The notes beneath the pieces are model-generated. The model was not told the DNA's origin. It worked only from the letters and a program-made list of their open reading frames with translations, and searched no databases. A stretch of 38,880 nt of DNA from Deltaproteobacteria bacterium (lineage in GTDB: Bacteria; UBA10199; SPLOWO2-01-44-7): positions 1-38,880 of the forward strand of contig JACRBV010000012.1 of assembly GCA_016213065.1 (NCBI GenBank), given 5' to 3'. The first letter of the stretch is position 1, and every line of letters begins with the position of its first letter. A program made the position numbers and the translations under genes. Shown piece after piece: positions 3,829-17,260 of the stretch.

Positions 3829-3860
3829 GCGGGTGTGGTTCAATGGCAGAATGCGAGCTT
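3829..3860 (+). pseudogene. tRNA-Gly 5' half, fragment B (identical copy)
   Basis: Thirty-two bases identical to nucleotides 1-32 of the intact tRNA-Gly(CCC) gene at 4010-4041. Identity begins exactly at the tRNA 5' end and stops just before the first anticodon base; upstream and downstream flanks are unrelated. It cannot fold into a tRNA because the anticodon 3' arm and T arm are missing. Confidence 0.85.
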
Positions 3861-3871
3861 GGCTATCTATA

Positions 3872-3996
3872 GGGGCTCGCGTCGCCCCCTCCAATGGCAA
3901 AGCCATTGGAGCCTCCCCCTCTCGCCGCTAACGCGGCTAGAAAAAGAAAAACAAGGGAATTGCCCTTGACGTCCCTTCACCAGCTTCGCGGTGAAG
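3872..3996. repeat. Cluster of five small hairpins before tRNA-Gly
   Basis: Five successive stem-loops occupy this gene-free interval: GGGGC/GCCCC (3872-3888), CTCCAATGGC/GCCATTGGAG with loop AAA (3889-3911), GCCGC/GCGGC (3924-3937), CAAGGG/CCCTTG (3952-3968) and CTTCACC/GGTGAAG (3975-3996). They differ in sequence but share geometry with the hairpins in yacG and at the toxin-antitoxin island borders. Otherwise 3780-4009 holds only tRNA fragment B. Confidence 0.75.
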
Positions 3997-4009: not shown

Positions 4010-4083
4010 GCGGGTGTGGTTCAATGGCAGAATGCGAGCTTCCCAAGCTTGAGACGAGGGTTCGATTCCCTTCACCCGCTCCA
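4010..4083 (+). tRNA. tRNA-Gly (anticodon CCC)
   Basis: A full cloverleaf: acceptor GCGGGTG pairing with CACCCGC, D-arm with GGTTCAATGGCAGAA, anticodon stem CGAGC/GCTTG around loop TTCCCAA (anticodon CCC at 4042-4044), T-arm GAGGGTTCGATTCCCTT, and an encoded CCA end at 4081-4083. The sequence closely resembles the E. coli glyU type. Two truncated copies of its 5' half lie upstream at 2160 and 3829. Confidence 0.95.
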
Positions 4084-8960: not shown

Positions 8961-11900
8961 TTATTGCGTTTCTGTTTCTTCGTCTTTCTCTGCAAGACGG
9001 GCCACTGAGGTTACCTTTTCTCCTTCTTCAACATTGATCAGGCGCACTCCCTGCGTAGCTCTTCCCTGTAAAGAAATGCCGGATACTGCGGTTCGTATTA
9101 TTTTTCCTTTATCGGACACCAACATGATGTCTTCGCCGTCGGTGACCTGCATCACGCCGATGACCACACCATTTTTTTCGGTCACTTTGCAAGTGAAAAT
9201 ACCGCTCCCGCCACGTGACTGTATGCGATATTCTTTGAGCTCGGTTCTTTTTCCGTAACCTTTTTCCGTCACTGTCAGGAGAACCGCGTTGTTGCCGTTG
9301 ACAACCTCCATGCTGACAACCTCATCCCCTTTTTCAAGCTGAATGCCGCGCACCCCGCCGGCTTGACGTCCCATGTTGCGAACGTCTTCCTCATGGAAGC
9401 GGATCGCTTTCCCGCGACGCGTCGACAAAACAATTTCCTGTTTTCCATTGGTCAGTTTGGCGGCCACCATTTCATCACCTTGATCCAAACCAATGGCAAT
9501 AATGCCGCTGGCTCTGGGATGACTAAACGCCGTCAATTCCGTTTTTTTGATCGTCCCCTGACGCGTCACCATTATAACCGAATGCCCTTCCATAAATTCC
9601 TTCACAGGCATGATGGCGGCGATTTTTTCTTCGGAGGAAATTTGAACAAGATTGCTGATGACTTTTCCTTTTGTCACGCGCCCCGCTTGCGGAATTTCAT
9701 GGACTTTGAGCCAGAAAAGTCGTCCACGCGTGGTGAAAACCAGCAAATAACTTTTTGTTGAGGCGATAAACAAATCTTCCACAAAGTCTTCATCGCGGGT
9801 AGCCATCCCCGTTTTTCCGCGTCCGCCGCGCCTTTGCGCACGATAAATACTGACGGCGTTGCGTTTGATGTAACCGCCATGGCTGATGGTAACCACCATC
9901 TCTTCTTCCTGAATCAAATCTTCCTCGTTAATTTCTTCGGCGGCGCCCTGAATTTCTGTGCGGCGTTCATCACCATATTTGTCGCGAATTTCTTTGATCT
10001 CGTCTGAAATAATTTTCATGATGCGGCGTTCATCGGCCAAAATCGCTTTGCATTCTTTGATGAACTTCAACAATTCTTCCAGTTCTTCCAAAATTTTGGT
10101 TCTTTCAAGTCCGGTCAGGCGTTGCAGTCGCATATCCAAAATGGCCTGAGCCTGAATTTCGCTTAATTTAAACTTCAAACGCAGAGCTTCTTTGGCGGCC
10201 TGTGGTTCTTTCGATTTTTTGATAAGGGCAATCACTTCATCAATGTGATCCAGCGCAATTTTCAACCCTTCCAAAACATGGGCACGCGCCTCCGCCTGTT
10301 TGAGATCGTAAACGGTTCTGCGGGTGACCACTTCTCTGCGATGATCGATAAAAAATTGAAGCGCCTCTTTAAGATTCAACACTTTGGGTTGTTGGTGGAC
10401 AATGGCCAGCAAAATCACGCCGTATGATTCTTCCATCAGAGTGTGTTTGTAGAGGTGATTCAAAACAATACCGGCAACCGCTCCGCGTTTGAGTTCCACC
10501 ACAACGCGCATACCTTCTCTGTCCGACTCATCGCGAATATCGGAAACCCCTTCCAGTTTTCCTTCCTGAACAAGGTATGCAATCTGCTCGATGAGTCGCG
10601 ATTTATTCACCTGATACGGAATTTCAGTGACGATAATCGCTTCACGATCCCCTTTCGCAATGGGTTCAATGAGGGCTCTGGCCCGCATGACAATTTTTCC
10701 GCGGCCCGTGGCATAGGCATTTTTGATTCCCTCTCTGCCGCAGATAAAAGCACCCGTCGGGAAATCGGGACCCGGCACATGTTTCATCAATTCTGGAATT
10801 GTGAGGGAAGGTTTATCAATCAACGAAATCAACGCATTCGAAAGTTCTTTTAAATTATGAGGCGGAATTTTGGTAGCCATCCCAACCGCAATACCATCGG
10901 AACCGTTGAGCAAAAGATTCGGAATTTTAGAGGGAAGCACCACGGGTTCCATAGTGGAGCCGTCAAAATTGGGAATAAAGTCGACCGTTTCCTTGTCAAT
11001 TTCCTCCAGCATCTCCTCCGCAATTTTTGTGAGACGCGCTTCCGTGTAACGGTAAGCGGCGGCAGAGTCGCCGTCTATGGAATTATGGACAAAAACACCG
11101 GCGGCCAAAGAAAAATTGTGGGTTCCATCAACAGTAAGATCATAAACGTCAGCCCTCCCAGCGGATTCCACCGAAACAACTTTGTGGTTGAGTCTTCCAT
11201 GATGCGACTGAGTAGCCAATTCCAGTGCTCTGCGGTTATTCGCAAAATAACGTTCAAAACCTTGTTCAAACCGAAGGATTCCCTTAACCTTGGTTGATTT
11301 TCGGATCTCTTCGTAATTTTTTTCTGTCAGTTCACCAAGCTGAAGCATCGCACGTTGGCAAATTGTTAAAAATCGGGATTGAGTCGTTTTTTGACCGTTA
11401 CTGGAAAGATGTTTGGCGTGTTGTTCCCGATATTTTGGATTTTGCCACTGTTGTTTACTAACTTGGGAACAAAATTCCCGATAGGATGGATCACTCCACC
11501 ATTTTTTGGATAAATCGCCAAAAGCTTTCCGTGCAACGGGGTCTTGCACTTTCTTGCTGGTAATCTGGGATATTTTTTCGCGATGAGCCGGGTCCGACCA
11601 AATTTTTGCGGAGATTTCCTTCATATACTCTCTCTGCAAGGCAACGTAGGCAGGGTCTTTCCACATTTTATTAAGCCATTCTTTTTGGGCTTTTTTAATG
11701 GATTCCTTCTGCTCTTTGGAACCGTAAAGCAGAACATTTTTCTTTAATCCGGCTTCGAGAATGCGTTGACGAAATTGAGAATCGTTCCAAAGCTTTCTTT
11801 TGGCTTCCATCTGTTTCTTTTGGAATGTTTTGTCTTGCCAACGGCGTTTATTTTCTTCCCCAATCGCGGCAATTGTTTTCTTACGAAATGCACTGCCTTT

Positions 11901-12836
11901 CCAAAGATTGGAAAGAACACTTTTCATTTTCTTTTGAAACTCTGGATTAGACCAAAGTACTTTCAAATATTCATGATGGAGACGACGATGTTCGCCCCAG
12001 CCCATGCGAATAATGTTTCTTGGGTCATTGTTTAATTTATTGAAATCTTTGTGGTGACGTACACGGCCGGCACTTTTGGGGTAGACACTTCTGTTTAAGT
12101 TATAAGCATCTGCCAGATGATGGGCAAAAACCCAGGAATCGGTAGCGGGATTATAAATCTCTTCATATTTTTTTAAATTCACATCCTTCCCATCATAAAA
12201 TCGGTTGTAAAGAGGCATTAAGGAATCATCCGTTTTTAAATTTTGAGCTTCGCGATAGGTCCCATTTCGCAACATAAAACGATGGTCCGGTGTACACCGT
12301 ATTTTTTCACCGTTGTCCAAAGTCACTTCTACAATGGGAGTATTTTGTTTGGTCAGGCGGGGCGCTTGAATGGGAGCCATCGCCACATTTCCATCTTGTG
12401 TAACAGTATAAGTGAAGTGGATTTTATCATTGGCGTAATCAGCGACAAGCTCCTCAAAAGATTTAGTTTCTCCATTGGCCATGCGGATTCTGGTGTCTCC
12501 CGTAAAACAACCAAAGTTTCCTTGCCCGTCGATCATGGGATAGCGCATGTTCCAGCTTTGGGCCATGCGGACCAATGTGTCATAAACGGCGGCGTCTCCG
12601 TGGGGGTGATATTTCTTAAGTACCTCTCCCACCACACCGGCGCAGTTTGAATAGCGTTTATTGGAGAGAAGTCCCTCGCGAAACATCGCGTAAAGAATGC
12701 GGCGATGAGCGGGCTTGAGACCATCGCGAATGTCGGGAAGCGCGCGACCGATGATCACGCTCATCGCGTAATCAAGATAGGAAGCTTTCATCTCCTCTTC
12801 GATATTGATTGGAACGAGTTCTGCGGACTTTGCCAT
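8961..12836 (-). CDS. gyrA: DNA gyrase subunit A precursor containing an intein
   Basis: A 1291-residue reading frame. Removing the intein (residues 110-585) leaves 815 residues, a normal GyrA length. GyrA cuts and rejoins DNA in the A2B2 gyrase that introduces negative supercoils. Landmarks are SYLDYAMSVIIGRALPD at the N-terminus, the winged helix AHRRILYAM, HPHGDAAVYD, and the catalytic tyrosine in AAYRYTEARL (precursor Y597, mature about Y121). The C-terminal pinwheel carries the GyrA box as QRRGGRG, which supports gyrase over topoisomerase IV ParC. The N-terminal MAKSAELVPINIEEEM fits the family start. There is no Shine-Dalgarno sequence before the ATG; a promoter abuts the start codon (separate entry). 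The gene for GyrB is not in the window. Confidence 0.96.
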   Translation of the reverse strand: MAKSAELVPINIEEEMKASYLDYAMSVIIGRALPDIRDGLKPAHRRILYAMFREGLLSNKRYSNCAGVVGEVLKKYHPHGDAAVYDTLVRMAQSWNMRYPMIDGQGNFGCFTGDTRIRMANGETKSFEELVADYANDKIHFTYTVTQDGNVAMAPIQAPRLTKQNTPIVEVTLDNGEKIRCTPDHRFMLRNGTYREAQNLKTDDSLMPLYNRFYDGKDVNLKKYEEIYNPATDSWVFAHHLADAYNLNRSVYPKSAGRVRHHKDFNKLNNDPRNIIRMGWGEHRRLHHEYLKVLWSNPEFQKKMKSVLSNLWKGSAFRKKTIAAIGEENKRRWQDKTFQKKQMEAKRKLWNDSQFRQRILEAGLKKNVLLYGSKEQKESIKKAQKEWLNKMWKDPAYVALQREYMKEISAKIWSDPAHREKISQITSKKVQDPVARKAFGDLSKKWWSDPSYREFCSQVSKQQWQNPKYREQHAKHLSSNGQKTTQSRFLTICQRAMLQLGELTEKNYEEIRKSTKVKGILRFEQGFERYFANNRRALELATQSHHGRLNHKVVSVESAGRADVYDLTVDGTHNFSLAAGVFVHNSIDGDSAAAYRYTEARLTKIAEEMLEEIDKETVDFIPNFDGSTMEPVVLPSKIPNLLLNGSDGIAVGMATKIPPHNLKELSNALISLIDKPSLTIPELMKHVPGPDFPTGAFICGREGIKNAYATGRGKIVMRARALIEPIAKGDREAIIVTEIPYQVNKSRLIEQIAYLVQEGKLEGVSDIRDESDREGMRVVVELKRGAVAGIVLNHLYKHTLMEESYGVILLAIVHQQPKVLNLKEALQFFIDHRREVVTRRTVYDLKQAEARAHVLEGLKIALDHIDEVIALIKKSKEPQAAKEALRLKFKLSEIQAQAILDMRLQRLTGLERTKILEELEELLKFIKECKAILADERRIMKIISDEIKEIRDKYGDERRTEIQGAAEEINEEDLIQEEEMVVTISHGGYIKRNAVSIYRAQRRGGRGKTGMATRDEDFVEDLFIASTKSYLLVFTTRGRLFWLKVHEIPQAGRVTKGKVISNLVQISSEEKIAAIMPVKEFMEGHSVIMVTRQGTIKKTELTAFSHPRASGIIAIGLDQGDEMVAAKLTNGKQEIVLSTRRGKAIRFHEEDVRNMGRQAGGVRGIQLEKGDEVVSMEVVNGNNAVLLTVTEKGYGKRTELKEYRIQSRGGSGIFTCKVTEKNGVVIGVMQVTDGEDIMLVSDKGKIIRTAVSGISLQGRATQGVRLINVEEGEKVTSVARLAEKDEETETQ
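11082..12509 (-). mobile_element. GyrA intein with HNH-type endonuclease region and tandem Trp repeats
   Basis: A 476-residue in-frame insertion with all splicing residues: first residue Cys110 (CFTGDTRIRM), block B T182-P-D-H185, block F VYDLTVDGTHNFSLAAG, block G F-V-H-N with H584 and N585, and Ser586 as the +1 nucleophile. Splicing should restore GNFG-SIDGDSAAAY. The middle holds an HNH-like motif (R-H-H-K-D-F-N-K-L-N-N-D-P, residues 260-272, then E-H-R-R-L-H-H at 282-288). Next comes an array of W-x-D/N-P/x-x-F/Y units at W295, 312, 333, 350, 392, 413, (Q431), 447 and 464. The array is probably a DNA-binding part of the homing endonuclease. All motifs look intact, so both splicing and homing could be active. 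Confidence 0.95.
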
Positions 12837-12873: not shown

Positions 12874-13093
12874 TTTACAAAATATCATTTCGGGAGAGTG
12901 AGAAGACGATTGAAGATGCGAGTTGCATCGCTCTTTTTTTTGCGTCTGGCGCGAGTTTATGGTTGACGCAAGTGAAAGCAGTGTAATAAGTTGCCGTCAC
13001 AGCTCGTATCGGCAAAGCACAATCGCTCTTGATATCCAACAAGAGTGGAACCGCAAATGCTGATAAATCGGAGAAGGAAGGGGGGTGAAGAAA
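12874..13093. other. Divergent intergenic region gyrA / HU
   Basis: About 220 bp without a gene beyond the gyrA promoter. A TTGACG at 12963-12968 followed at 15 bp by TAATAA (12984-12989) might be the HU promoter, though the spacing is short. GAAGGAAGGGGGG at about 13073-13085 supplies the HU ribosome binding site. Nothing else recognised. Confidence 0.4.
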
Positions 13094-13366
13094 ATGACAA
13101 AAGCAGAATTGGTTAGCTATATCGCCAAGGATTGCAAATGCTCCAAAGCCCTATCCGAAAAACTTCTCAACGCAACAACACACAACATCGCAAAATGTCT
13201 TCGCAAGAATGACAAAATTACACTGACAGGTTTCGGGACATTCTATCCAGCCAAGAGAAAAGGCCGTGTGGGACGCAATCCTCAGACGGGGGCCCAAATC
13301 AACATTAAGCCGCGCCGCGTTCCGCGTTTCAAACCGGGCAAACAGCTTAAAGATTGGGTTATCTAA
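13094..13366 (+). CDS. HU/IHF-family DNA-binding protein
   Basis: A 90-residue histone-like protein: helices at residues 1-40 (MTKAELVSYIAKDC), then LTGFGTFYPAKRKGRVGRNPQTG in the beta-arm region and KPRRVPRFKPGKQLKDWV at the end. HU dimers bend and compact DNA without strong sequence preference. The start at 13094 fits the family; a GTG at 13085 would bury the G-rich ribosome binding site. The final F-K-P-G-K-x-L-K is typical of HU. It stands alone, ends before hairpin element R1 and terminator T1, and marks the left edge of the toxin-antitoxin island. Confidence 0.93.
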   Translation: MTKAELVSYIAKDCKCSKALSEKLLNATTHNIAKCLRKNDKITLTGFGTFYPAKRKGRVGRNPQTGAQINIKPRRVPRFKPGKQLKDWVI

Positions 13367-13387
13367 AGTTCGTTTAGGAAGGAAGAA

Positions 13388-13440
13388 GTCAAGGCCCCGC
13401 AAGCGGAGCCGCGAAGCAAACTCGAAGAGTTTGCGGAGTA
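13388..13440 (+). repeat. Palindromic element R1 (left border of toxin-antitoxin island)
   Basis: Fifty-three bases beginning GTCAAG, with a CCGC/GCGG hairpin and then the stem GCAAACTC/GAGTTTGC with loop GAA, ending GCGGAGTA. The final 30 bases match the reverse complement of R2 (16184-16237) at 29 positions; the first six are identical. Confidence 0.85.
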
Positions 13441-13446
13441 AAATAG

Positions 13447-13490
13447 AAAAGCCTTTTGAGTTTCAAACCTCAAAAGGCTTTTTTGTTTTT
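13447..13490 (+). terminator. Rho-independent terminator T1 (first of three identical copies)
   Basis: Stem GCCTTTTGAG/CTCAAAAGGC (13451-13460 and 13469-13478) with loop TTTCAAAC, flanked by an A tract and a T tract. It terminates the HU transcript. The same 44 bases recur at 14069 and 15178. Confidence 0.92.
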
Positions 13491-13550
13491 ATATAAAACA
13501 CACTCCATTTAAAACTTGAAAACATTACAAAACTTACCTACTAAGTCCCC

Positions 13551-13829
13551 GTGCCTATCAAAACAAAAGAAATAGTTTTTTCCCAACATGCTTTGGATCA
13601 ACTGAAAGACAGAGGAACCACGCAGGAAGAAATTATTCAGACCATTTGGGAAGGGGAGATGCAAATTGCCAAAAAGGAGCGAATTTCATTCAAAAAAAAC
13701 TTTCCCTTTGAAAAAACATGGAAAAACAGGCACTATTCGCTTAAGCAGGTGATGCCAATCGTTGTCGAGGAAAAAGGTTGTTACGTCGTAATTACTGTTT
13801 ATGTTTTTTATTTTGGAGGACAACAATGA
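13551..13829 (+). CDS. DUF4258-type protein, probable toxin partner
   Basis: A 92-residue basic protein starting at GTG. The N-terminal FSQHALDQLKDRG followed by TQEEIIQTIWEG is the pattern of DUF4258 domains, which resemble RelE/BrnT-like small toxins. A central K/F-rich strand region and a C-terminal VVITVYVFYFG complete a small alpha/beta fold. It overlaps the next gene as ATGA. Genes of this kind are frequently paired with DUF2283 proteins; a toxin role is inferred from that pairing and the neighbourhood, not shown by catalytic residues. Confidence 0.7.
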   Translation: MPIKTKEIVFSQHALDQLKDRGTTQEEIIQTIWEGEMQIAKKERISFKKNFPFEKTWKNRHYSLKQVMPIVVEEKGCYVVITVYVFYFGGQQ

Positions 13830-14041
13830 AAATAAAATATGATCCCCGAGTGGATGCCGCATACATATCCTTTAAAAAAGGTCCGACACAAGTTACGACG
13901 GTCCGTTTGAACGAAGACATCGCTGTAGACTTGGGCCCACACGAAGAAATCGTTGGCATTGAAATCCTAGATGCCAGCGAACACTTAAACCTTAAAGGGA
14001 CTTCCTTTAAATTGGAGCTGGAAAATCTGAAAGTCGCTTAA
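13826..14041 (+). CDS. DUF2283 protein, probable antitoxin partner
   Basis: A 71-residue protein with the DUF2283 signature: MKIKYDPRVDAAYISFK, then D-I-A-V-D-L-G-P and VGIEILDASEHL. The ATG at 13826 is chosen because GGAGG lies at 13815-13819 and the start overlaps the preceding stop (ATGA); the longer reading from 13778 is an overlap artefact. DUF2283 proteins are short, uncharacterised and commonly encoded next to DUF4258 genes. The gene ends 27 bp before terminator T2. Confidence 0.8.
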   Translation: MKIKYDPRVDAAYISFKKGPTQVTTVRLNEDIAVDLGPHEEIVGIEILDASEHLNLKGTSFKLELENLKVA

Positions 14042-14068
14042 TCAAAAATCCGTTCAGGAAGAAATGAA

Positions 14069-14112
14069 AAAAGCCTTTTGAGTTTCAAACCTCAAAAGGC
14101 TTTTTTGTTTTT
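14069..14112 (+). terminator. Rho-independent terminator T2 (identical to T1 and T3)
   Basis: Same 44 bases as T1, including loop and T tract. The bases just upstream (AAATGAA) are also shared with T3, giving about 50 identical bases between T2 and T3. It closes the DUF4258-DUF2283 module. Confidence 0.92.
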
Positions 14113-14134
14113 TGAACACCTGCTTGCTTTTAGA

Positions 14135-14166
14135 CTCATATTGAGTATGATTGTACTCAATATGAG
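14135..14166 (+). promoter_or_regulatory. 32-bp palindromic operator over the start of the HTH-nucleotidyltransferase gene
   Basis: Perfect 13-bp arms CTCATATTGAGTA (14135-14147) and TACTCAATATGAG (14154-14166) flank TGATTG. The right arm includes the ATG at 14162-14164. It is a likely binding site for the encoded winged-helix protein and, as RNA, could hide the start codon. Confidence 0.75.
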
Positions 14167-14776
14167 CACAACGCAAACGGCACTTCATATACTTTTTGGC
14201 TCCAGAACAAGAGCGAATCTCATCACGTTGTTTGTAACTCATCCAAATGAAGCTTTTTATGTCCGCCAATTGGCCAAACGGATTTGTCAATCCACAACTC
14301 CCGTTGTTCGTGAATTGAAGAAACTCGAAAATTTGGGTCTGGTTACCAGTGAAACAAAAGCCAATGCCAAATACTATCTGTTGAACACAGCGTCGCCCAT
14401 CTACTCTGAATTGCAGTCACTTGTTCTAAAAACGACCGGCATTGGTGACATCCTTAAAAAATATCTGCAACCCTTCTCCTCTTTGTTGTTCGCATTTATC
14501 TATGGTTCCTTTGCAACCACAGAGGCAGGGCCAAAGAGCGATATTGATTTGTTTTTGATCGGTCAAATTTCCGCGAATGTACTGGCAAAAACAATCAAAG
14601 AAGCGGAAAAACAGCTCGGAAGAGAAGTGCAATATTCTTTGTTTGACAAAAAGGAATTTTTGAAAAAATCAAAAAAGGGCAATGACTTTATCGATCAAAT
14701 CATCAAGGGACCCAAAATAATGTTGATCGGAGATGAAAATGAATTTAAGCGATTTGCAAAAACAGGGATGGATTAG
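14162..14776 (+). CDS. Winged-helix plus MNT-type nucleotidyltransferase (probable antitoxin)
   Basis: A 204-residue protein. Residues about 8-75 form a winged-helix DNA-binding domain (RTRANLITLFVTH, FYVRQLAKRI, VVRELKKLENLGLV, NAKYYLLN). From about residue 105 there is a minimal nucleotidyltransferase with YGSFATTEAGPKSDIDLFLI, carrying the G-S and D-x-D metal-binding motif. In MNT-HEPN systems this enzyme modifies (AMPylates) and silences the HEPN RNase. The start at 14162 is chosen because upstream codons translate terminator T2. The gene overlaps the HEPN gene by 38 bp. The added DNA-binding domain and the operator palindrome suggest autoregulation. Confidence 0.88.
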   Translation: MSTTQTALHILFGSRTRANLITLFVTHPNEAFYVRQLAKRICQSTTPVVRELKKLENLGLVTSETKANAKYYLLNTASPIYSELQSLVLKTTGIGDILKKYLQPFSSLLFAFIYGSFATTEAGPKSDIDLFLIGQISANVLAKTIKEAEKQLGREVQYSLFDKKEFLKKSKKGNDFIDQIIKGPKIMLIGDENEFKRFAKTGMD

Positions 14777-15176
14777 GCCATTTAAGGCGGGCGCTTCACA
14801 GGCCAAAGACCGCCTGAATCTGGCCAAAAGGGATATTGCCACCGCCAGAAAACTCTTGGGCAGTGATTCCGACTGGGCCTTTAGCATCGCCTACAATGCT
14901 GTATTGCAAGCGGCCAGAGCATTGATGTTTGCCAAAGGCTGGCGGCCGGCAACGGGAGAAGGTCAGCATATGGCCGCCGTGCGATTTGCGAAAGCCGTCA
15001 TAGGCAAGGAATTGGGAGACGAAATATATCTCTTTGATAAAATGCGCTCCAAGAGACATCGAGTTATCTATGATGTTAGCGGTTCTGTCTCCAAACAGGA
15101 GGCAAAATCAGCGTTCGATTTTGCCATACACTTTGTCGAAACCGTCGAAAAATATCTTCAGAAAATGATCAAATGA
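14739..15176 (+). CDS. HEPN-domain protein (probable toxin of the MNT-HEPN pair)
   Basis: A 145-residue all-helical HEPN protein. Helices at about residues 20-42 (QAKDRLNLAKRDIATARKLL), 45-65 (AFSIAYNAVLQAARAL) and 115-140 are clear. The loop motif RSKRHRVIYD at 103-112 sits where HEPN RNases have their R-x4-6-H catalytic pair, but spacing here is R-x3-H, so catalysis is uncertain. The ATG at 14739 is chosen because GGAG lies six bases upstream; ATG 14733 touches it. The stop codon TGA is the first triplet of the sequence shared by T2 and T3. Confidence 0.85.
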   Translation: MNLSDLQKQGWIRPFKAGASQAKDRLNLAKRDIATARKLLGSDSDWAFSIAYNAVLQAARALMFAKGWRPATGEGQHMAAVRFAKAVIGKELGDEIYLFDKMRSKRHRVIYDVSGSVSKQEAKSAFDFAIHFVETVEKYLQKMIK

Positions 15177-15177
15177 A

Positions 15178-15221
15178 AAAAGCCTTTTGAGTTTCAAACC
15201 TCAAAAGGCTTTTTTGTTTTT
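15178..15221. terminator. Terminator T3 between convergent modules (identical to T1 and T2)
   Basis: Same 44 bases as T1 and T2, placed between the HEPN stop (15176) and the stop of the minus-strand nucleotidyltransferase gene (15220-15222). With A and T tracts on both sides it can terminate in both directions. Confidence 0.92.
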
Positions 15222-15849
15222 ATTTCTTCTGAAACCAGGCTTCCAGTTTTTTAGAAGCCTCGCTCTTGCTTAATTTTTTACGAAACACTTCTTCGTAAAT
15301 TTTGAGAACCCAATCGAGGGCATCCTGAATTTCTTTAGCTCCCGCCCTCTCCCTCAACCGTTGCATGTCGGCTTTTCCAAGCTCCAAAAGGAAAAGGGCG
15401 TTGAGTCCATCAATGCCGGATTTCCAAAACTTATAAGCGGCAAGGCGATCGACAATCAGATCTTCAAGGGAAATAATTTTCAGTGGAATGCTCTCAACAT
15501 CAATTTGATCGCTTTTTTCACCCGGATTCAAAGTCGCCGATGGAAATTCGATGTAAATTTTCAGGAGCTCATTTATAAAATCTTTTCCACGCCTCTTGAA
15601 ACCCAATTCTTCCATTACTTTCCAGAGTAAAGGACCTCCCATGGCAATCATGTCGATATCTTTCGTGGCATAATTGCCGTCGGTATAGAATTCAACGGCC
15701 GCACCACCCACCAAAACAGGATCTTCGCCAATTTTGCGCAGAGCTTCAGCTATCACGGCGGCAATTTTGACACCACGTCTGGCCAAATCTTTTTCCCCGG
15801 CGGCTTTGCGCAGGAGGCTTTTCAGATTATTTAAATTTTTTGAGCGCAT
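15220..15849 (-). CDS. AbiEii/DUF6036-like nucleotidyltransferase (probable toxin)
   Basis: A 209-residue protein with the nucleotidyltransferase core DPVLVGGAAVEFYTDG then TKDIDMIAMGG, giving the G-G (48-49) and D-x-D (D64, D66) metal site. A second region ISLEDLIVDRLAAYKFW is typical of this superfamily. It ends in a basic helix region K-L-S-K-S-E-A-S-K-K-L. The start at 15849 is preferred because it matches the fold and gives a 23-bp overlap with the antitoxin gene; 15921 is an in-frame upstream start. Related enzymes (AbiEii, MenT) block translation by transferring nucleotides to tRNA. Pairing with a Phd-type antitoxin instead of AbiEi is unusual in my experience. Confidence 0.8.
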   Translation of the reverse strand: MRSKNLNNLKSLLRKAAGEKDLARRGVKIAAVIAEALRKIGEDPVLVGGAAVEFYTDGNYATKDIDMIAMGGPLLWKVMEELGFKRRGKDFINELLKIYIEFPSATLNPGEKSDQIDVESIPLKIISLEDLIVDRLAAYKFWKSGIDGLNALFLLELGKADMQRLRERAGAKEIQDALDWVLKIYEEVFRKKLSKSEASKKLEAWFQKK

Positions 15850-16171
15850 TTTGTTTATATGGTTTTTGGCCTTTGCGACTGAGTTTGGAAATATCAAACA
15901 TATTTTTGATGGATTCAACAACGGCCTTTCTCTGCGGTCTTTCTTTTTCCCACTCTGTCAGACTTATTTTGCGTGGGACATAAACCGGCGCTTCTTTTTC
16001 TCCGACCCACGAAAGAAATTCGGAATAAGGAACTAAAATGGCGGCCGGCTTACCGTTGAGTGTAATAGCCAACAGACGTTTTTGTCCACTGACCTTGGCA
16101 ACTTTTTCGGAGAGCTTGGCCTTTACCTCAGTTAAAGGTTCAAAATCGATATTGAGAAGGTTGGTGTTCAT
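15827..16171 (-). CDS. Phd/YefM-type antitoxin, first gene of the minus-strand module
   Basis: A 114-residue protein. The N-terminal FEPLTEVKAKLSEKVAKVS and the strand AITLNGKPAAILVPYSEFLS are the Phd/YefM dimer core. The C-terminal 60 residues (PRKISLTEWEKERPQRK onward) are longer and more basic than usual and would contact the toxin. It has its own strong promoter and palindrome upstream, separated by element R2. It overlaps the downstream nucleotidyltransferase gene by 23 bp. Confidence 0.82.
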   Translation of the reverse strand: MNTNLLNIDFEPLTEVKAKLSEKVAKVSGQKRLLAITLNGKPAAILVPYSEFLSWVGEKEAPVYVPRKISLTEWEKERPQRKAVVESIKNMFDISKLSRKGQKPYKQNALKKFK

Positions 16172-16183
16172 AAGGGCTATTTA

Positions 16184-16237
16184 TACTCCGCAAACTCTCC
16201 GAGTTTGCTTCGCGACCCGGCAAAGCCGTGTCTTGAC
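16184..16237 (-). repeat. Palindromic element R2 (right border, inverted copy of R1)
   Basis: Fifty-four bases in inverted orientation to R1, with the stem GCAAACTC/GAGTTTGC (loop TCC), the small hairpin CGGC-AAA-GCCG and the end GTCAAG. It lies in the 5' leader of the minus-strand toxin-antitoxin operon. Confidence 0.85.
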
Positions 16238-16268
16238 TATTATAATAGTCTTTTAACTAGTCTGTCAA
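16235..16268 (-). promoter_or_regulatory. Promoter and operator of the Phd-nucleotidyltransferase operon
   Basis: On the minus strand a consensus TTGACA (16268-16263) and TATAAT (16244-16239) are 18 bp apart. The -10 box lies in the perfect 16-bp palindrome GACTATTATAATAGTC (16235-16250); a further GACTA occurs in the spacer. This is the expected layout for autorepression by the antitoxin. The leader of about 60 nt contains element R2. Confidence 0.85.
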
Positions 16269-16270
16269 GA

Positions 16271-17260
16271 TTACCCAATCTTCATCTCTTTGGGGACTTT
16301 GTTGGTGAAGTGGCAGGCGCTTTGTTGGTCTGGGCGGCCGTGATTTTCTAGCGGCGGCTCTGTGCGTACGCAGAGGTCTTCGCAATAGGTACAGCGCGGG
16401 TGGAAGGAACAGCCTGTGGAGAGTAGGATGGCGGAGGGAACGTCCCCTTTTAATGGGATTCTTTCGATTTTGTGTTCGGGATTTGGGAGAGGGACTGCGG
16501 AGATTAAAGCCTGCGTGTAGGGATGTTGTACATAAGCCAATTGTTCCGCGGGAAATGTTTCCACAATTTTTCCCAGATACATCACGGCAATGCGATCGCT
16601 GATTTGGGAGACTACTTTCAAATCGTGCGAAATAAAAATGGTGGTGAGATGAAATTGCTTCTGCAATTTTTTGAACAGATTCAAAATTTCACCCTGAATG
16701 GAAACATCCAACGCCGAAAGAGGTTCATCGGCCACAATCAGATCGGGTTTCAATGCAATGGCCCGCGCAATACCGACGCGTTGACGCTGGCCGCCGCTGA
16801 ATTCGTGGGGGTATTTGTTGTAATCATCGGCACTCAAACCCACCAACTCCAATAATTCCGCAACTTCTTCTTCCCGCTGTTTAGCATTGCCGCGTTTGTG
16901 AATGATGAGGGGTTCTTCGATAATTTCACCCACCTGCATGCGGGGATTCAAAGAGGCGAAGGGGTCCTGAAAAATCATCTGCATGCGGGCGCGCAATTCT
17001 CTTAATTTTTTCTTTGAAACCGCGGAAATATCCTGTCCGTCGAAAAATATTTTCCCTGCGTTGGGTTTCAGCAAATGGATCAAAAGATTTCCCAGTGTAG
17101 TTTTACCGCAACCGGATTCTCCCACAATTCCCAGAGTTTCTCCTTTGGCTAATTCAAAGGAAACACCGTTCACCGCGTGGACAAACTTTTTTCCCCGGCC
17201 AAAAAAACCGCCGCCAGTTGGGAAATATTTCATCAGATTTTCAGCTTTCAATAAATTCAT
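16271..17260 (-). CDS. Peptide/nickel-type ABC importer ATPase (DppF/OppF type)
   Basis: A 329-residue ATPase powering uptake through the permease pair encoded upstream. Motifs: Walker A GESGCGKTTLG, Q-loop FQDPFASLNPRM, signature LSGGQRQRVGIARA (as FSGGQRQ), Walker B LIVADEPLSALD, and the switch His in FISHDL. The C-terminal oligopeptide-specific extension with spaced cysteines (CSFHPRCTYCEDLC) is present. It begins 3 bp after the OppD-type stop, as last gene of the operon. N-terminal sequence KAENLMKYFPTGGG is typical of the F subunit, which pairs with the D subunit as a heterodimer. Confidence 0.93.
   Translation of the reverse strand: MNLLKAENLMKYFPTGGGFFGRGKKFVHAVNGVSFELAKGETLGIVGESGCGKTTLGNLLIHLLKPNAGKIFFDGQDISAVSKKKLRELRARMQMIFQDPFASLNPRMQVGEIIEEPLIIHKRGNAKQREEEVAELLELVGLSADDYNKYPHEFSGGQRQRVGIARAIALKPDLIVADEPLSALDVSIQGEILNLFKKLQKQFHLTTIFISHDLKVVSQISDRIAVMYLGKIVETFPAEQLAYVQHPYTQALISAVPLPNPEHKIERIPLKGDVPSAILLSTGCSFHPRCTYCEDLCVRTEPPLENHGRPDQQSACHFTNKVPKEMKIG

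Follow-up and report, generated by a model that had tools for sequence, protein, structure and literature searches.

Copies of a putative HU terminator divide three predicted toxin–antitoxin modules in a deltaproteobacterial genome

Introduction

Integron gene cassettes are small gene units divided by copies of a hairpin repeat. The array described here has the same general layout, yet it differs from integron cassettes in that its repeat is the predicted terminator of a resident gene. Homologous terminators also surround the gene unit of engineered T9002 plasmid circuits and drive its precise deletion there in fewer than 20 generations, according to the accessible text of PMC2991278; in contrast to those circuits, the present array is natural and its cargo may punish loss. 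No natural precedent for terminator-associated insertion, for terminator cassettes or for duplicated terminators was found in the accessible parts of the open-licence literature. How small toxin–antitoxin modules come to be clustered at chromosomal sites without transposases is not well explained.

Two further kinds of element serve as references. REP sequences and Rickettsia palindromic elements (RPE) are dispersed hairpins, some of which keep the reading frame of the genes they occupy, replication genes among them, as the available portions of PMC3733652 and PMC10969869 describe. In MNT-HEPN dyads the nucleotidyltransferase gene comes first and the HEPN gene second, and HEPN proteins that have lost the motif histidine carry a conserved histidine elsewhere (PMC3710099, accessible sections). 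PDC-M05 in PADLOC is a candidate defence system whose antiviral role is given as still to be confirmed in the accessible text of PMC12988326.

Results and discussion

Layout of the locus

The window, a stretch of 38,880 nucleotides, belongs to one draft assembly of 155 contigs. It contains an HU gene followed by three two-gene modules (Table 1), and the dppF stop at 16271 adjoins the promoter of the last of these. Pfam searches bore out the gene content that the sequence-only reading had proposed for this interval, namely a DUF4258–DUF2283 pair (DUF4258 scoring 23.0, under the cut-off of 25), a winged-helix nucleotidyltransferase with a HEPN protein, and a Phd-type protein with a nucleotidyltransferase.

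Table 1 Features of the HU-proximal array (positions in the window)
Feature	Position	Strand	Remarks
HU gene (Bac_DNA_binding)	13085..13366	+	Pfam 6.3e-30; gyrA-HU order in 12/12 relatives examined
HU stop codon with the 3' leader as far as R1	13364..13387	+	
R1, dispersed double-hairpin palindromic repeat within HU 3' leader	13388..13443	+	
T1, copy of the putative HU terminator hairpin with T run	13447..13490	+	stem behind HU in relatives
Module 1: DUF4258 (13551-13829) and DUF2283 (13826-14041)	13551..14041	+	
HU 3' leader-like stretch, 16/20, just before and into T2	14045..14064	+	
T2, second copy of the putative HU terminator	14062..14112	+	
Inverted repeat overlapping module 2 start, probable operator	14135..14166	+	same element in G002, G003
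Module 2: wHTH-nucleotidyltransferase (14162-14776) and HEPN (14733-15176), PDC-M05 type	14162..15176	+	
T3, third copy of the putative HU terminator, where modules 2 and 3 converge	15171..15221	+	
Module 3: Phd-type antitoxin (15827-16171) and nucleotidyltransferase (15220 to about 15849)	15220..16171	-	
R2, dispersed repeat between module 3 promoter/operator and Phd start codon	16181..16237	-	
Module 3 promoter/operator: TTGACA, 18-base spacer, TATAAT; palindrome GACTATTATAATAGTC	about 16235..16268	-	conserved in G003, G005, G035

An HU match was obtained in 45 other genomes, and the DNA downstream of HU was read in 12 relatives among them. In all five family relatives the island is absent behind HU and a pyridoxamine-phosphate-oxidase-like gene follows instead (Pfam-tested in G002 only). 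Because this neighbour is shared by all five, the HU–dpp neighbourhood itself is taken to be rearranged here. The comparison of this interval across relatives, which had been proposed with R1 and R2 as expected boundaries, yielded the absence of the island behind HU; the two repeats do not delimit it.

The palindromic repeat R

The arms of R1 and R2 (13403-13443 and 16181-16221) are inverted and 88% complementary, as had been noticed from the sequence alone. R is a dispersed repeat of 54-57 bp with two hairpins, whose pairing was scored in 33 of 37 copies. Genome-wide, 35 sites were found within three mismatches, and 40 with a slightly shorter pattern; the 35 sites are spread over 26 contigs, 15 in forward and 20 in reverse orientation. 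Some lie in ribosomal-protein operons and others inside genes, R being read in several frames. Reading frames were assessed in 39 rows; with four of these (L025, L026, L027 and L126 at position 8) counted as one contig-end copy, 36 distinct copies of the 40 sites were covered, 12 of which are flanked on each side by 50 or more open codons. The Pfam match spans the R insert in five of seven R-bearing proteins. In these respects R resembles REP and RPE sequences, which are likewise short dispersed hairpin repeats, some of them in frame within genes; it differs from them in its length, its two hairpins and its several reading frames, and no GTAG end was seen on R.

At module 3 the repeat lies inside the unit that it was thought to bound. 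In three relatives the Phd promoter/operator directly abuts the start codon, while here R2 stands in between, and DNA alignments showed about 61 extra window bases at R2 and none in G005. R2 interrupts module 3's own leader, and the module continues past R2 to its promoter. R1 and R2 are best read as copies of a palindromic element found throughout the genome that were inserted later.

The terminator-like hairpin T

A terminator-like hairpin, T, had been missed by the sequence-only reading. One copy stands at each junction (HU/module 1, module 1/2 and module 2/3), and the copies, with 11-base arms and an 8-base centre, are pairwise identical over 44, 46 and 51 bases. At T3 the initial bases contain the HEPN stop, and the stop of the module 3 nucleotidyltransferase falls at the end of this copy. 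T1-T3 are the sole copies genome-wide within three mismatches, and none was found in 59 other genomes.

The T stem occurs 3' of HU in four of five family relatives. Across 46 class genomes the exact stem was found behind HU only, plus three times in the genome of the window; a stem followed by a T run, with any loop of 4-20 bases, was present in four of these 46, namely this genome and the HU loci of G003, G004 and G005. A close variant follows HU in G002 and a different terminator in G001, and loop length varies among the relatives. A looser form of T retrieved five stretches from the genome_contigs database, of which four are apparently the HU contigs of G002-G005 and one is from Psychroflexus; viral contigs gave none. 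These occurrences identify T as the terminator-like hairpin of HU itself. Furthermore, the stretch preceding T2 resembles the HU 3' leader without R1, with a score that 0.13% of the 5551 stretches in the window attain. Four of the 20 positions distinguish the two leaders; T itself shows no differences. At T3 no HU-leader match was found.

In a strict scan that covered 56 loci around module matches and other sampled DNA, no second repeated terminator was detected; since the scan accepted perfect stems only (36, 27 and 15 hairpins), the rarity of repeated terminators may be overstated. The 56 loci include many weak matches and one locus (L151) from the window's own genome, and the scan covered 25 G000 pieces, a subset of the G000 loci. 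Besides T, no direct repeats of at least 26 bp within 5 kb were seen at module boundaries in the sampled DNA; the other repeats of this kind comprised tandem copies of R, further dispersed repeats, part of a tRNA, and low-complexity or coding repeats.

The three modules

Module 1 has a DUF4258 homolog at another locus in G001 (64%), with DNA homology over 13572-14041. Homologs of module 2 lie at other loci in G002 and G003 (63-64%), and those of module 3 at other loci in G005 (67%) and G003 (63%). Island DNA gave no match in plasmids; the module 2 protein was found in 17 plasmid records, all below 60% identity.

The adjacent components of module 2 matched the PADLOC models PDC-M05A (6.7e-54) and PDC-M05B (4e-23), so that the module is of PDC-M05 type by sequence. 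Its gene order, nucleotidyltransferase and then HEPN, is that of HEPN-MNT modules, from which it differs by a winged helix fused to the nucleotidyltransferase and by the lack of a conserved RX4-6H motif in HEPN. The HEPN protein of type VII HepT-MntA systems is characterised by the motif RX4HXY. Module 2 carries RSKRHRVIYD instead, with N at the H position in most homologs of an 11-sequence alignment, and its score against the MntA equivalog NF047752 was 30.4 bits against a cut-off of 60; both results depart from type VII. A HEPN-T match (PF05168, 1.7e-10) together with another histidine, invariant in the 11 aligned sequences, assigns the protein to HEPN-T. Among solved structures the first protein of module 2 had three weak SlyA matches, and the HEPN protein had no relatives up to E = 0.1.

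In module 3 the upstream gene encodes a Phd/YefM-type antitoxin (PF02604, 33.1 bits, cut-off 29.8). The description of its partner as AbiEii-like is weakly founded: DUF2204 scored above its cut-off (24.3 against 20.3 bits), but DUF6036 remained below (21.3 against 23.6), and no sequence relative was found in the PDB up to E = 1. Classification of the module as AbiE (AbiEi-AbiEii) was rejected, as DUF2204 alone exceeded its cut-off, the partner is Phd-type and PADLOC gave no match.

The toxin and antitoxin roles suggested by these assignments are predictions from sequence. The wHTH-nucleotidyltransferase antitoxin of module 2 probably represses its own promoter and would block the HEPN toxin, perhaps by modification. 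In module 3 a Phd protein would act as repressor and antitoxin beside its nucleotidyltransferase partner; module 1 is the DUF4258–DUF2283 pair. A bidirectional T would close HU, module 1 and module 2, and module 3 would also end on T3 from the opposite side.

Origin of the array

We consider it probable that three independent toxin–antitoxin modules of known kinds were gathered stepwise behind HU with duplication of the HU terminator, and that R1 and R2 came later. The suggestion of a slowly assembled cassette, made from the sequence alone, gains weight from the absence of the island behind HU in the five family relatives, the location of each module's homologs at other loci, and the T copies between the modules. 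The HU 3' leader and terminator may have been duplicated before each insertion or, if the template was switched at the hairpin, in the course of it; insertions that left a whole terminator on both sides would have been retained. No strain came to light whose site is empty or partly filled and would show stepwise insertion directly. Also counting against this reading, it comes from one draft genome, T3 has no HU-leader match, and identical repeats predict instability. Exact T copies should permit precise module loss by slippage or recombination, against which toxin addiction would select.

A different origin, with R1 and R2 as the termini of a mobile or mobilisable unit by which all three modules came in as one block, is extremely improbable. 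The island's coding part does lie between inverted copies, and the genome has two Y1_Tnp genes, members of the Y1-transposase family linked to REP elements. RAYT-mobilised REP copies lie beside a Y1 tyrosine transposase gene, but no R-like sequence was detected at either locus here (about 3.3 kb, up to 6 substitutions). The dispersal of R in both orientations, in frame inside genes and around ribosomal-protein genes, and the position of R2 within the module 3 leader also speak against R as an island end, and none of the 56 loci around module matches contains R. Such a spread is what the sequence-only reading had itself named as refuting its proposal. It is very unlikely, too, that short repeats were misassembled and that the real genome has fewer than three T copies or another order. 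Such an error would fit a draft of this kind and an HU–dpp adjacency unlike that of the family relatives; repeats of 44-51 bp are, however, shorter than common sequencing reads, and the copies have distinct contexts, with two different stops at T3 and a diverged leader at T2.

Two remaining readings concern T. Unrelated insertions, each of which arrived with a terminator or later acquired one, might have been followed by gene conversion from the HU terminator. The T2 leader bears on this: a single old duplication would predict some changes in T as well, which leaves room for gene conversion or for later copying. The extents of identity nevertheless vary among T1-T3, there is no sign of older, different terminators alongside, and we regard this course of events as unlikely. 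T might instead be a recombination site, at which toxin–antitoxin units with one T are gained or lost as circles, in integron-like fashion, through a recombinase acting in trans or short-homology recombination. Direct repeats do divide the units, and arms around a short centre are also known from recombinase core sites. Against this, T-module units were found nowhere else (59 other genomes; single T sites in genome_contigs; none in viral contigs), the loop varies in relatives, unlike a core site, and the relatives' homologous modules lack repeated terminators in the strict scan, which leaves this reading a small chance.

If the modules were gathered stepwise, the copy of a resident terminator found at every junction points to a simple route to clustering, namely duplication of a stop signal followed by insertion that harms neither neighbour. 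Precise T-to-T loss of single modules is predicted and should be visible in reads. A bolder proposal, which we hold to be unlikely, is that a chromosomal terminator has turned into a cassette site: toxin–antitoxin units with one HU terminator would be gained and lost there as a small array that has no integrase of its own, identical terminators promoting loss and toxins punishing it. The repeat R, for its part, occurs in frame within dnaX and other core genes, which cautions against taking scattered palindromes for mobile-element ends. On contig C110 an inverted pair of R copies, 3.2 kb apart, spans apparent ribosomal-protein and initiation-factor genes (named by eye).

Module content and homologs

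The window is contig C12 of a 1.8 Mb draft genome in 155 contigs; it is the only genome of its genus in the comparison set, which includes five others of its family (G001–G005). The three two-gene modules between the HU gene and dppF claimed in the sequence-only reading were all found by domain search of the window: a DUF4258-DUF2283 pair (module 1), a wHTH-nucleotidyltransferase with a HEPN gene (module 2), and Phd with a nucleotidyltransferase on the strand opposite to the other two (module 3). Toxin and antitoxin roles were assigned to these genes from family knowledge. Module 2 matched the PADLOC model of the PDC-M05 pair, and the MntA cut-off was not reached. Its homologs in G002 and G003 (63–64%) are located away from HU and share with the window an inverted repeat over the start codon, consistent with the fused winged helix acting as an autoregulator. 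The HEPN motif is unlike the HepT motif. Another histidine is invariant in an 11-sequence alignment of this HEPN protein, resembling HEPN-T as reported in an excerpt of PMC3710099. At locus L129 (G002:C55:2531-3142), the nucleotidyltransferase homolog carries an in-frame TAG and the adjoining HEPN gene looks open. Module 3 homologs occur in G005, G003 and other genomes, and module 1 has a homolog in G001. For module 1, DNA homology stops at the stop codon; for module 2, it begins 16–23 bases past hairpin T2 and ends ~19 before T3.

Features of the window
Feature	Position	Description
R1	13388-13443	copy of repeat R
R2	16181-16237	copy of repeat R
T1	13447-13490	hairpin with T run
T2	14062-14112	hairpin with T run
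T3	15171-15221	hairpin with T run
Second palindromic repeat	~3850-3920 (minus)	copy in the window
tRNA gene	4010-4080	
tRNA gene, first 32 bases	4010-4041	
Exact copy of these 32 bases	3829-3860	181 bases upstream
GyrA gene	8961-12836	1291 aa

Repeat R is a dispersed, intragenic element

Sequence comparison bore out that R1 and R2 are inverted copies of one repeat, whereas their proposed function as boundaries of a mobile unit was refuted, since R is dispersed in 35–40 copies, R2 lies within module 3, and R was present in none of the 56 loci around module matches. The R core pattern (≤3 mismatches) hit 35 sites on 26 contigs of the window's genome (15 forward, 20 reverse), and its reversed control none. 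A slightly shorter pattern gave 40 sites there and 3, 9, 9, 1 and 4 in G001–G005; 12 of 46 class genomes carry copies. Despite letter variation, 6 or 7 of the 7 pairs of the first stem are retained in 27 of 33 scored copies. Tandem copies are spaced 57 bp, and some adjoin apparent ribosomal-protein genes.

R is open in five of six reading frames, and 12 of 36 distinct copies sit in frames that stay open for 50 codons or more both before and after the repeat. Copies lie in frame within housekeeping genes of the window's genome (L125:4575-6311, L008, L010, L015, L033, L216, L217). The Pfam match spans the insert in five of seven scanned R-bearing proteins (dnaX product, ArsA-type ATPase, flavoprotein, ABC/AAA protein, DeoC; not in LolA and a radical SAM protein). 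The dnaX gene holds three inserts of ~19 codons each; G003 dnaX lacks both the double insert and the third, and the G003 flavoprotein gene also lacks R. For the ABC protein the G003 comparison is harder to read, the match being 45% identical and perhaps a paralog. Because of these in-frame copies, Pfam-spanning inserts and insert-free G003 genes, R is an intragenic element of the REP/RPE-like type, described earlier in PMC3733652 and PMC10969869. By eye, a replicative-helicase-like open frame of ~600 codons (L007) seems to hold both intein sequence and an in-frame R copy.

Upstream of Phd in G005, G003 and another compared genome, G035, TTGACA is followed after a spacer by the palindrome GACTATTATAATAGTC, which lies 2–5 bases before the start codon. 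The window has this element too, with 63 bases including R2 between palindrome and start codon, and alignment with G005 showed ~61 extra window bases at the R2 site and 0 in G005. Among nine module 3 relatives examined, the element was clear in these three, loose in two and absent in four. R2 is located inside module 3, between this element and the Phd start codon; module 3 therefore ends beside the dppF stop, past R2.

The HU terminator recurs at the module junctions

The sequence-only reading had missed the repeated hairpin T. Pairwise identity among its three copies runs to 44, 46 and 51 bases. At ≤3 mismatches only these three occur in the window's genome, and none was found in 59 other genomes. 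The stem plus T run (loop 4–20 bases) was found in 4 of 46 class genomes, with three copies in the window's genome and, in each of G003, G004 and G005, a single site behind HU. Since the relatives' sites all follow HU, T is HU's own terminator. Behind HU, G002 has a close variant and G001 a different terminator; a looser form matched five stretches in genome_contigs (four family HU contigs and one Psychroflexus). T3 holds the HEPN stop codon in its first bases and that of the module 3 nucleotidyltransferase at its end.

Perfect terminator-like hairpins sharing at least 16 bases were limited to T within 426,421 bases of the window's genome (window included), with none in 400,000 bases of G003 or in the 56 module-match loci; this strict scan saw just 36, 27 and 15 hairpins in the three sets. 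An open scan of sampled DNA for exact repeats of at least 26 bases within 5 kb also turned up repeats other than T; these were not seen to coincide with any module boundary. No natural precedent for a repeated terminator at module junctions was found in the literature searched. The repeated HU terminator is an unusual feature, resting on one draft genome.

Proposed assembly of the island

A 20-base stretch before T2 matches the HU 3′ leader at 16/20. Scores this high were found for 0.13% of 5551 stretches of the window; no such match precedes T3. R1 interrupts the leader at T1, and the leader-like stretch at T2 is free of R1, suggesting that leader and T were duplicated before R1 arrived. Slow, stepwise assembly, as the earlier reading had envisaged, is supported by three exact copies of the HU terminator at junctions of modules whose homologs stand at other loci in relatives; of that reading as a whole, the modules and inverted R copies stood, but not R as boundary. 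The terminator would have been copied ahead of each insertion or in the course of it, so that the genes on both sides kept a proper end. The likeness of the T copies may instead stem from gene conversion, or a true cassette system may operate at T. In an engineered circuit with homologous terminators, intervening DNA was lost in <20 generations (excerpt of PMC2991278), and by analogy the natural T array would be expected to undergo precise loss readily; toxin addiction would be a plausible reason for its persistence.

In all five family relatives, the gene after HU is pyridoxamine-phosphate-oxidase-like and convergent with it (Pfam on the G002 copy only). In the window's genome this gene has another location, divided between contigs C126 and C31, and T does not follow it. 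A radical SAM gene follows dppF in G002, and apparently the same gene, by eye, stands there or one gene further in G001, G003 and G005; G004 shows none behind dppF, its best dppF match being only 53% identical. The relatives' neighbours of HU and dppF differ, so a rearrangement brought HU and dpp together, with the modules at the join.

Other observations

A second palindromic repeat family (~26 copies in sampled DNA) occurs in the window, at L114, L121, L125 and others, and also within genes, e.g. the split pyridoxamine-oxidase-like gene. The first 32 bases of a tRNA gene in the window are repeated exactly upstream. GyrA contains an intein-like insert at residues 119–585 (Intein_splicing, 9.6e-21).
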